The notes under the pieces: generated by a model
The model's input: only the letters and a program-made list of their open reading frames with translations
Told to the model about the DNA's origin: nothing
Databases searched by the model: none
In this document: one piece after another, positions 61,569 through 64,000 of the stretch
Layout of the letters: each line of letters begins with the position of its first letter
How positions within the stretch are numbered: the first letter of the stretch is position 1
Origin: Flavivirga eckloniae
GTDB lineage: Bacteria > Bacteroidota > Bacteroidia > Flavobacteriales > Flavobacteriaceae
Reading direction: 5' to 3'
Length of the DNA: 64,000 nt
NCBI RefSeq assembly: GCF_002886045.1
Contig: NZ_CP025791.1
Location: forward strand, 5,161,001 to 5,225,000
Made by a program: the position numbers and the translations under genes

Positions 61569-63617
61569 ATGAAAGATTTTATAAATAAACTATATAAAAA
61601 TCATTCTTTAATTTATAAAGGGTTATTATTTATATCGACCACTTTTTTTATTGTGTATTTGTTTCCTAAAAGTGGAAAATTCAAGTACAATTTTGAAAAT
61701 GGAAAACCCTGGCAATCAGAAAATTTATATGCACCTTTCGATTTTGCCATAAAAAAAACAGATGGCGAGATTGAGTCTGAAAAAGAAGTGCTAGTTAACA
61801 ACTCGGTATTGTATTTTAATTTAGACAATACCATCGAAGCTAAAATAAAATCTTCATATAGTAATCACTTTAAAAATACATTTTCAGATTCTATTCCTAG
61901 GTCGGTGTCTAAAAAGTTATACAAGATCGGCGAAAAAATCGTTGACGAATTGTATCTATTTGGGGTTTTAAGTGAGGATTATAATTTTCCCGAAGATAGG
62001 GCTATAGTTGTGCTTGACGGAAGGGTTAAAAAACAGGATGGTTTCTTTTCTCATTTAATTAAGCAGGATGGAGTATCGAAAGTTATTGATAATGCTTTGA
62101 ATAAACAAGGTGTGATTCAGTATAAAACAGTTTTTACCTCCTTGTTTTTCGATTTAGTAGAGCCTAATCTGGTTTTCGATAAATCGTTTACAGATAAGGC
62201 ACTACAAGAAGAAATAGGAAAAATAGCTTACACCAGAGGAAGTGTTGCAAAGGAAACCTTGATAATTTCTAAGGGAGAAGTTGTAGAAGGCGATAAATAC
62301 CAAATATTAAAGTCGTTACAGTCGGAATACGAATCGCAGGTTTGGAGTAAATCCAATTATATCTGGGTATTGTTCGCTTATACATTGTTAGTAGCCTTAG
62401 CGTTATTAATGCTACTTTTGTTTTTAAGAAAGTATAGAATTGAAGTATTTGAAAATAATACTAAGGTTACATTTATTTTCTTCAATGTTTCTTTAATGAT
62501 ATTTATAACAACCTTTGTTGTAAATTATGATGCCAAGTATATTTATATTGTCCCCATTTGTATTTTGCCCTTAGTACTCAAGGCCTTTTTTGATGCCAGA
62601 CTGGGCTTATTTTCGCACGTCCTTACTGTATTGTTAATTGGGTTTATTGTACCCAATAGTTACGAATACATGTTTCTTCAAATTATAGCAGGAATTGTAA
62701 CTATATTGACTGTTTCAGAATTATACAAAAGAGCTAATTTATTTATATCGGTAGGGCAAATAACACTCATTTATATTATTGCCTATTTTGCATTTGTGGT
62801 TATTCATGAAGGTAGTGTGAAAACAATAAAATGGGAAATATTTATTTGGTTTATCTTGAGTGGACTTGCGACGCTTTTTGTACAGCCTTTAATATACATA
62901 TATGAAAAGATTTTTGGTTTGGTTTCTGATGTATCGCTTTTGGAACTTTCCGATACTAATTCGAAATTATTAAAAGAGCTGTCCGATAAGGCACCAGGAA
63001 CCTTTCATCATTCTTTAAATGTAGCCAACCTAGCTGAAGCTTCTGCAAATGAAATAGGAGCTAACGCTATGCTGGTAAGGGTAGGAGCTTTGTATCATGA
63101 TATTGGTAAAATGAGGAATCCAACTTTTTTCACCGAAAACCAATCAACAGGGATTAATCCACACGATGAATTGTCACCTAAGGAAAGCGCACGAATCATT
63201 ACAGATCATGTTATAAACGGTATAGAGATAGCCAAAAAGAATAATTTACCGGATAGAGTTATCGATTTTATACGTACTCACCACGGCTCTAGTGTTGTGT
63301 ATTATTTTTATATGCAGGAAAAGAAGGAATACGATGATGTTGATAAGCTAGATTTTAGTTATCCGGGGCCAAAACCATTTAGTAAGGAAACGGCTATTTT
63401 AATGATGTGTGATAGTATTGAAGCTGCGTCGAAAAGTCTAAAGGAACCAACATCTACAAAGATTGATGCATTTGTTGAGAATATCATAAATAAGCAAATA
63501 AAGGATGAACAATTTCTAAATGCGGACATTACATTTAAGGAAATTGAATCGATAAAAAAGGTGTTAAAACACAAGCTTGCAAACATTTATCATTTACGTA
63601 TTGAATACCCGGAATAA
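61569..63617 (+). CDS. 7TM-HD membrane phosphohydrolase (PgpH-like)
   Basis: A 682-residue protein: an N-terminal helix, an extracytoplasmic 7TMR-HDED-like domain to about 260, seven membrane helices to about 460, and a C-terminal HD domain. Metal-site motifs are FHHSLNVANLAE, LYHDIGKM and RTHHGSS. PgpH of Listeria, with this architecture, hydrolyses cyclic di-AMP, so this protein may do so; the substrate has not been shown for Bacteroidota. No diadenylate cyclase gene is in the window. Confidence 0.88.
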   Translation: MKDFINKLYKNHSLIYKGLLFISTTFFIVYLFPKSGKFKYNFENGKPWQSENLYAPFDFAIKKTDGEIESEKEVLVNNSVLYFNLDNTIEAKIKSSYSNHFKNTFSDSIPRSVSKKLYKIGEKIVDELYLFGVLSEDYNFPEDRAIVVLDGRVKKQDGFFSHLIKQDGVSKVIDNALNKQGVIQYKTVFTSLFFDLVEPNLVFDKSFTDKALQEEIGKIAYTRGSVAKETLIISKGEVVEGDKYQILKSLQSEYESQVWSKSNYIWVLFAYTLLVALALLMLLLFLRKYRIEVFENNTKVTFIFFNVSLMIFITTFVVNYDAKYIYIVPICILPLVLKAFFDARLGLFSHVLTVLLIGFIVPNSYEYMFLQIIAGIVTILTVSELYKRANLFISVGQITLIYIIAYFAFVVIHEGSVKTIKWEIFIWFILSGLATLFVQPLIYIYEKIFGLVSDVSLLELSDTNSKLLKELSDKAPGTFHHSLNVANLAEASANEIGANAMLVRVGALYHDIGKMRNPTFFTENQSTGINPHDELSPKESARIITDHVINGIEIAKKNNLPDRVIDFIRTHHGSSVVYYFYMQEKKEYDDVDKLDFSYPGPKPFSKETAILMMCDSIEAASKSLKEPTSTKIDAFVENIINKQIKDEQFLNADITFKEIESIKKVLKHKLANIYHLRIEYPE

Positions 63618-63710: not shown

Positions 63711-63794
63711 GGAGAGGTGCCAGAGTGGTAATGGAGCAGATTGCTAATCTGTCAACGCGTAAGTGTTGCCCGGGTTCGAATCCCGGTCTCTCCG
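63711..63794 (+). tRNA. tRNA-Ser (anticodon GCT)
   Basis: An 84-nt class II tRNA. The acceptor stem GGAGAGG pairs with TCTCTCC (last pair G-T), the discriminator is G, the anticodon stem GCAGA/TCTGT holds the loop TTGCTAA with anticodon GCT (63727-63760 region), and the long variable arm (CAACGCG-TAA-GTGTTG) is typical of serine tRNAs. The T-loop has GGTTCGAATCC. CCA is not encoded. It reads AGC and AGT codons. Confidence 0.96.
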
Positions 63795-63813
63795 CTTTTT
63801 TTTTGATAACCTT

Positions 63814-63931
63814 CGGGGTGTACCACGCTAAGGCGTGGCAGGTCTATGACCGGTCAAAGATGACGCCGAAGGAGTTATTATCGCGCCGCGTTTGGGACGC
63901 GGAGGTCGTCACGCTACAGGCGTGACCACCC
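63814..63931 (+). other. tRNA-Pro-like element with altered T-loop and expanded D-arm
   Basis: The stretch starts with CGGGGTGTA, as Pro tRNAs of this group do. From 63878 it reads TTATCGCGCC, then a perfect anticodon arm (CCGCG-TTTGGGA-CGCGG, 63886-63902, anticodon TGG at 63893-63895), then variable loop AGGTCG, then a 5-bp/7-base T-arm-shaped hairpin (TCACG-CTACAGG-CGTGA, 63909-63925) whose loop is not TTCRANY, and CACCC that pairs with GGGTG of the 5' side. About 50 bases with hairpins (for example CCACGC-TAAG-GCGTGG at 63823-63838 and palindrome GACCGGTC at 63848-63855) fill the D-arm. It is unlikely to be a working tRNA. It is far richer in G+C than its surroundings. Confidence 0.6.
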
Positions 63932-63944
63932 AAAACTATGACTT

Positions 63945-64000
63945 ATGGTAGTTTATATATTATATAGTCAAAAACGTTCAAGATATTATATAGGTCAAAC
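63945..64000 (+). CDS. GIY-YIG nuclease family protein, cut by the window edge
   Basis: Only the first 18 codons are in the window: MVVYILYSQKRSRYYIG and following. VYIL and YYIG are the two halves of the GIY-YIG signature, at the right spacing of about ten residues. Proteins of this kind (UPF0213-like) are small stand-alone nucleases in Bacteroidota, often next to tRNA genes. An ATG seven bases upstream (63938) opens another frame that stops early. The remainder of the gene lies outside. Confidence 0.75.
   Translation, partial: MVVYILYSQKRSRYYIGQ

Follow-up and report, generated by a model that had tools for sequence, protein, structure and literature searches.

Structure of the locus

The window, that is, the whole 64,000-nucleotide stretch of Flavivirga eckloniae DNA that was analysed (contig NZ_CP025791.1, positions 5,161,001 to 5,225,000), contains near its end an intact tRNA-Ser(GCT) gene (63711..63795, plus strand), called by ARAGORN and by Infernal (56.2 bits). 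It is the first member of a tRNA-Ser/tRNA-Pro pair that is invaded by an element; the same Ser-Pro neighbourhood is found without the element in other Flavivirga species (e.g. loci L026, L037 and L042). A large open reading frame of 682 aa upstream of the tRNA-Ser gene (61569-63617) may encode a membrane HD-domain phosphohydrolase, which it resembles in sequence.

The stretch at 63814-63931 had been singled out in the original prediction as a mimic of tRNA-Pro(TGG), and its coordinates proved to be exact. By its sequence, it is the displaced 5' part of a tRNA-Pro(TGG) gene followed by the first 23 bases of the element. The displaced part (63814..63908, plus strand) opens with CGGGGTGTA, whose C is base 63814 and which comprises the native 5' acceptor strand with bases 8-9 of tRNA-Pro (63814-63822); the 31 bases at 63878-63908 are identical to bases 21-51 of the genome's tRNA-Pro (E 7.2e-9). 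The D-arm between these two segments is altered, its start being substituted by the palindromic hairpin CCACGC-TAAG-GCGTGG (63823..63838, plus strand). In relatives such as L021 the D-arm hairpin reads TCACGC..GCGTGA, with the closing pair changed on both sides; displaced copies with an unaltered D-arm occur in the second unit of L021 and in L024, L120, L131 and L135. The place of the T-arm is taken by the hairpin TCACGC-TACAG-GCGTGA (63909..63925, plus strand), whose stem is conserved. This hairpin forms the 5' end of the element, which we set at 63909, the point where the sequence departs from the tRNA. It is followed by CCACCC (63926..63931, plus strand), an element-borne copy of the acceptor 3' strand that is complementary to the displaced acceptor strand, in agreement with the proposed pairing of CACCC with GGGTG. 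A functional tRNA gene was rejected as an interpretation of 63814-63931, since neither ARAGORN nor Infernal calls a tRNA there and the T-arm is replaced.

An ORF for a GIY-YIG nuclease of 80 aa begins at 63945 (63945..64000 in the window, plus strand) and continues beyond the window to genome position 5225187. It runs into a restored, intact tRNA-Pro(TGG) gene that also lies beyond the window end (genome positions 5225178-5225253): the final codons are encoded by the leader and the first ten bases of the intact tRNA, and the stop codon TAG coincides with bases 8-10. The element is about 320 bp long and consists of the 5' hairpin with CCACCC, the ORF, and the leader with the 5' two-thirds of tRNA-Pro. 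Its insertion point is the boundary between the variable loop and the T-arm. Because the 3' end of the element joins the host's own tRNA 3' part, a complete tRNA-Pro is re-formed downstream. A second unit, 91% identical over query bases 15-211, resides on the opposite strand at the other tRNA-Pro(TGG) gene of the genome, and at both loci a tRNA piece precedes the ORF and a complete tRNA-Pro follows it. The end of the ORF inside the intact tRNA-Pro, its 80-aa length and the second unit all lie beyond the window and could not have been included in the original prediction; the finding is larger than what was proposed there.

The GIY-YIG nuclease

The ORFs of the two copies in the window genome match the GIY-YIG domain PF01541 at E 8.6e-16 (window copy) and 4.5e-16. 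The domain covers nearly the whole length of the ORF, so that the protein amounts to a catalytic domain only. Residues Y4, Y15, G17, R25 and E61, which we take to be the catalytic positions of GIY-YIG enzymes, are invariant in 10 diverse members; a GIY-YIG domain with conserved residues is a property of homing endonuclease elements. Structure prediction from an alignment of 6 sequences gives one compact domain, with a mean pLDDT of 82.5. The best Foldseek match is 1zg2 (UPF0213, BH0048), followed by Slx1, UvrC and the catalytic domain of I-TevI, none of them with E <0.001; the match to 1zg2 (E 2.7e-3, rmsd 7.3) therefore points to kinship of fold only. The ORF is under purifying selection, with dN/dS of 0.06-0.16 in 4 pairs (dN 0.06-0.11, dS 0.69-1.18).

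Curated libraries gave the window protein no name beyond its domain. A plasmid origin was rejected, since no match to the ORF was found among 72,556 plasmid records. A phage origin was rejected, as the 50,697 phage records yielded a weak match only, to two records of one phage at 39% identity. In the units of both loci only the GIY-YIG frame is likely to be a gene; the remaining frames are short and overlap the tRNA parts. An integrase-driven element was also rejected, since the unit contains no integrase-sized ORF at either locus.

Filled and empty tRNA-Pro genes in Flavivirga

The 12 Flavivirga genomes have two tRNA-Pro(TGG) genes each. Seven of these 24 genes are filled, both genes of the window genome being among them, 16 are empty and one lies at a contig end. 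The element is thus polymorphic at one exact site across related genomes, as is typical of a homing endonuclease element, in a comparison that is between species only, with one genome per species. The suggestion that the mimic is a recombination scar of a tRNA-targeted mobile cassette was essentially right, given that filled and empty genes occur at the same sites within one genus.

Of the 23 genes that were read, 21 share a single intact tRNA-Pro sequence whether or not they contain the element; the remaining two are both genes of one element-free genome (G004) and differ in one acceptor pair. The leader GATAACC.ATT on the 5' side of the tRNA is native at empty sites and codes for part of the ORF C-terminus at filled sites. 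Two units stand in tandem at two of the seven filled genes (G001 and G006), and one filled gene has a broken ORF (G008).

Two of the 16 empty genes (L045 on contig C3 of G007 and L047 on contig C4 of G008) contain a small insert at the D-arm that has no ORF. The D-arm inserts of L045, L047, L024 and L143 are composed of GTGTAG, a TACCG.. hairpin and, at their end, a repeat of the start of the tRNA. They have the appearance of another type of tRNA-Pro insert, one that is non-coding.

Distribution, targets and orientation

Matches to the window ORF were found in 54 of 349 genomes of the family, and a profile built from ten diverse members matched in 227 of 395 Bacteroidota genomes (both at E 1e-12). 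Among the best 80 of 313 named relatives, a tRNA gene lies downstream of the ORF (start at -40 to +150 from the ORF stop) in 59 cases and upstream in 14, although for three of the latter (L128, L150 and L166) only tRNA-Ser is upstream and a contig edge is downstream, and the upstream assignment of L223, within a tRNA cluster, is doubtful; a contig edge accounts for 5 cases and 2 have no tRNA. The 30 best phylum loci have a tRNA gene downstream in 15 cases, upstream in 11, a contig edge in 2 and none in 2. These rates, taken from best hits, apply to this nuclease family only rather than to all GIY-YIG genes, because the queries were built from tRNA-linked proteins. At 13 other loci of the window genome, which were chance hits of the search that detected the second unit, no tRNA was found.

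Another piece of the same tRNA, with a score higher than in any of 50 shuffles, is present on the far side of the ORF in 87 of the 92 loci tested (69 of 72 in the downstream class, 18 of 20 in the upstream class); 7 of the 99 tRNA-bearing loci were excluded from this count for too little flank or for tRNA-Ser upstream only. At a fixed score of 14 the counts are 59 of 72 and 16 of 20. Such tRNA pieces and GIY-YIG genes are strongly associated, a further point in favour of the mobile-cassette suggestion.

The targets include Pro, Arg, Ala, Asn, Val, Ser and Asp tRNA genes, invaded from the 5' or the 3' side. In the downstream class the commonest spacing places the ORF stop on tRNA bases 8-10 (37 Pro(TGG), 3 Pro(GGG), 1 Arg(TCG), 1 Arg(CCG) and 1 Ala). 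The upstream class has the reversed order of intact tRNA, ORF and displaced 3' piece, with a terminator-like hairpin before the ORF in several loci, and the leader of these elements invading from the 3' side differs from that of the 5'-side elements. Two to six ORF units are present at 31 of 110 loci.

Target choice tracks nuclease lineages. A quick tree was built from 158 ORFs, 124 of them labelled by target; on it the target changes 30 times, compared with 66-75 times in 20 shuffles, which leave host relatedness in place. In Arenibacter, the ORFs in Pro(GGG) genes are closest to ORFs of other species, not to those in the Pro(TGG) genes of the same genome.

Several loci have unusual repeat structures. 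In L072 (G192, contig C18, 444893-445511) the ORF is followed by ORF-less tandem repeats of a Pro(GGG) piece, about 97 bp apart, before the intact tRNA. L108 (G141) contains a series of tRNA-Val-like copies around the ORF with arms replaced by hairpins; one of these copies is called tRNA-Lys by ARAGORN. Five GIY-YIG units with equal scores stand in a row in L231 (G637, contig C1, 2945594-2947084), 315 bp apart, and L173 has six GIY-YIG units with no called tRNA nearby.

Transcription

The sequence TAnnTTTG is the promoter box of Bacteroidota. Of 48 tRNA-Pro loci, 38 have it in the 100 bases preceding the displaced copy or the linked tRNA-Ser, and 13 have it upstream of the restored tRNA; the background is 288 in 3121 sequence windows. 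At the restored tRNA the box falls within the ORF, at -97 in 12 of these 13 loci and at -58 in 4. This pattern agrees with one putative transcript over the mimic, the ORF and the tRNA, in which case the restored tRNA would seem to depend on read-through. RNase P cuts at the tRNA 5' end. As the stop codon is inside the tRNA, such a cut would remove the last codons of the ORF.

Conservation and folding of the displaced copies

We parsed 46 of 55 distinct Pro(TGG) copies, using a procedure that favours paired stems and CCACCC. The T-arm hairpin stem is 96-100% identical per position in these copies, and its loop is variable. The first five positions of the acceptor-strand copy CCACCC are conserved at 93-100% and the sixth at 76%; the leader that follows is conserved at 39-78%. 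Acceptor pairs are standard in 210 of 230 cases. Two of the parsed copies (L167 and L214) are anticodon-arm hairpins followed by AGACC. The nine unparsed copies comprise three incomplete ones (the first unit of L119, L144 and the first unit of L157) and six that have no hairpin or are of another type. By these values, the hairpin with the acceptor strand is a conserved end of most Pro(TGG) elements. The alternative of a decaying tRNA copy, raised in the original prediction, therefore holds in part, for the copy as a tRNA, but not for the element's own end.

A rival reading holds that the mimic works as an RNA device and is retained either for its shape or because it is unlike the tRNA: the displaced half would then be inert and would not capture the restored tRNA's 3' half, or it would serve as a substrate of tRNA-processing enzymes. 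The window copy does fold well, with the stems that had been described (-51.1 kcal/mol, z -2.86; 1 of 200 shuffles equally good), and the conservation of the hairpin and CCACC far above that of the leader would be expected of such a device. The hairpin stem hardly varies, however, so that its conservation does not demonstrate pairing, and this near absence of covariation speaks against the device. In other displaced copies the anticodon arm is substituted by hairpins, mostly TC(A/C)CGC..GCG(T/G)GA. Among 39 distinct hairpins of this kind in Pro, Asp and Val loci, two of which are near-native (L147 and L166), pair 3 is A-T in 17 and C-G in 17. These two-sided changes would favour a device, but the search admitted only hairpins with six complete pairs. 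Of the compensatory stems claimed earlier, those in the substituted anticodon arms found some support within this search for complete pairing, and those of the T-arm and of a preserved cloverleaf did not.

Folding was also examined at equilibrium. In 39 TGG copies the mean closure of the cloverleaf was 0.24, compared with 0.38 in copies with a shuffled interior, and the acceptor was closed in 9 copies versus 15; closure is thus not favoured. Among 30 whole transcripts, 28 were predicted to have the displaced acceptor strand paired with the 3' strand of the restored tRNA (0.68 or more); the folding of the 30 loci altered little when the hairpin and CCACCC were shuffled. The idea that the hairpin and CCACCC insulate the folding of the restored tRNA received no support from these 30 transcripts and was rejected. 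Energy models carry a multiloop penalty, which probably favours pairing of the displaced acceptor with the restored 3' strand in whole-transcript predictions; the result accordingly is no support for insulation rather than proof of misfolding. In a few transcripts an altered displaced half was predicted to mispair less than a native half (0.01 in L147 and 0.03 in L152 versus 0.97), as an inert half would. Overall, the folding models lend no support to selection on tRNA shape, and we regard an RNA device as a rather unlikely explanation of the mimic. The earlier suggestion that the nuclease uses the mimic as a decoy or docking site found no evidence here.

Alternatively, the hairpin beside the ORF could limit nuclease levels as a translational switch, a role that RNA hairpins have for several phage homing endonucleases. 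In the window copy the conserved hairpin ends 19 bases upstream of the start codon. The start codon itself is outside the hairpin, though, and the invaders from the 3' side have a different leader, which makes such a switch unlikely.

The hairpins were also compared with palindromes elsewhere in the genomes. CACGC..GCGTG palindromes number 4-17 in seven genomes of the window genus, versus 0-3 for a control, and have varied loops; in the window genome (G000) there are 9 versus 2, 4 of the 9 within the two elements. From these counts no dispersed family is apparent, although the modest excess over the control may leave room for one. Palindromes of the type CCTGCC..GGCAGG occur in the displaced copies of Arg, Met and Ala loci and are dispersed in Flavobacteriaceae genomes (43 versus 1 in the control for G200, 65 versus 1 for G345 and 46 versus 0 for G000), so the hairpins in these copies may be no more than common palindromes of the genome. 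For TCCCGC..GCGGGA the excess over the control in 8 genomes is modest (4-15 versus 0-2).

A probable mobile element that rebuilds its target

The mimic is probably the remnant of the 5' part of a tRNA-Pro(TGG) gene, left after the insertion of a homing-type mobile element of about 320 bp into that gene. The anatomy of the unit and its recurrence are well supported; we infer its mobility and mechanism, and read them as homing-type by analogy with phage SegB and fungal mobile ORFs. The nuclease would cut tRNA genes that lack the element, and repair of the break from an element-bearing copy through the flanking tRNA homology would insert the element and restore the tRNA. Breaks at the re-formed tRNA, together with recombination between repeats, could produce tandem arrays and losses. 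The mimic, the ORF and the restored tRNA would be co-transcribed from the old tRNA promoter, and, with the stop codon inside the tRNA, maturation by RNase P would destroy the nuclease message and keep the enzyme scarce.

Insertion of a homing endonuclease element is expected to destroy or alter its target, so that the filled allele escapes cutting, which is not what we see. The restored tRNA equals the empty target, and the presumed site therefore survives insertion, unlike classical homing sites. That the re-formed tRNA resembles an uncut target is a weak point of the homing-type reading. The restriction of the 80-aa protein to a catalytic domain is another point against it, as recognition of a particular tRNA gene would have to come from this domain.

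An ordinary tandem duplication of tRNA-Pro, with an unrelated GIY-YIG gene caught between the copies and subsequent decay of the first copy, is very improbable: the direct repeats do resemble a duplication and some displaced copies and ORFs are decayed, as is the broken ORF of G008, but recurrence of the arrangement in many tRNA families and from both sides strongly disfavours it, and it is further opposed by purifying selection on the ORF, by a target choice that follows nuclease lineages and by a junction hairpin that is nearly invariant across genera. Two kinds of intron were considered and rejected. An intron was suggested by a fold in which the displaced 5' half is paired with the 3' half of the restored tRNA, yet a complete tRNA lies downstream and an anticodon is missing from many of the displaced halves. 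For a group I intron in the tRNA gene, no intron family was present among the Rfam matches up to E 1 at both loci, and the tRNA is contiguous downstream.

Returning to the homing-type element, we lean, with some reserve, towards a phylum-wide class of minimal bacterial mobile elements, each made of one GIY-YIG gene of about 80 aa and a part of a tRNA gene. Its lineages would be specialised by tRNA target and by entry from the 5' or the 3' side, with the tRNA rebuilt each time. The 5' class would set an essential tRNA on the 3' side of its own ORF in the old tRNA transcript, and the piece left behind would be disarmed by palindromes in its arms. If true, this would account for the abundance of orphan small GIY-YIG genes in Bacteroidota and explain a class of tRNA-like genome fragments. 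It would mean that a large family of selfish elements lives inside essential tRNA genes and repairs the gene that it invades, with nuclease expression possibly coupled to tRNA maturation. It would also link phage SegB, fungal mitochondrial mobile ORFs and bacterial tRNA genes.

Comparison with known systems

Integrative elements at tRNA genes insert in the tRNA gene and restore the tRNA by a carried piece. Unlike them, the tRNA element has no integrase, the GIY-YIG gene being its only likely gene. With the UPF0213/YhbQ-like small GIY-YIG proteins the nuclease shares a stand-alone small GIY-YIG domain, and UPF0213 is its nearest Foldseek match; no report of UPF0213 residing in tRNA genes was found in the open-access literature. 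Titles and abstract openings found in searches of that literature likewise contained no description of GIY-YIG genes inside bacterial tRNA genes. The element may be a variant of known nuclease-driven mobile elements that is itself apparently undescribed, an open-access search being no proof of novelty.

SegB is a larger protein than the 80-aa ORF product. It is a free-standing GIY-YIG homing endonuclease of phages T4 and T6 (PMC13096335; PMC2988022), and the accessible parts of one report state that it cuts inside tRNA genes and drives tandem amplification of tRNA together with its own gene (PMC13096335), by homologous recombination and with the cut motif RAWTSGAAC. In our own reading, the reverse complement of this motif appears to match the tRNA T-loop. 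As far as these accounts go, SegB and the tRNA element share the GIY-YIG domain, the association with tRNA genes and tandem units of tRNA and nuclease. The SegB gene, however, sits between phage tRNA genes, whereas the ORF of the tRNA element is inside a tRNA gene, and the same parts of the reports describe no carried or displaced tRNA half for SegB.

The fungal mitochondrial mobile ORFs (mORFs) form gene hybrids, described in the available sections of one paper for atp6 of Allomyces and for atp6, atp9, cox2 and nad3 of Glomus (PMC3630166). There an endonuclease ORF (LAGLIDADG, or GIY-YIG in atp9) is inserted with a replacement gene end and the native end is displaced beyond the ORF, and the endonuclease was biochemically shown to drive mobility (PMC3630166). 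To judge from those sections, the tRNA element differs in that it targets a bacterial tRNA gene, has a unit of only about 320 bp, replaces in its 5' class the 5' end of the gene, forms tandem arrays, and has displaced arms that become hairpins. Its carried part is, moreover, the host's own sequence rather than a foreign end, the restored tRNA being the same as the element-free one. What the two systems have in common, on the same partial account, is a nuclease ORF that carries a replacement for the end of its target gene and displaces the native end, an arrangement found here in 69 of 72 and 18 of 20 loci of the two classes.
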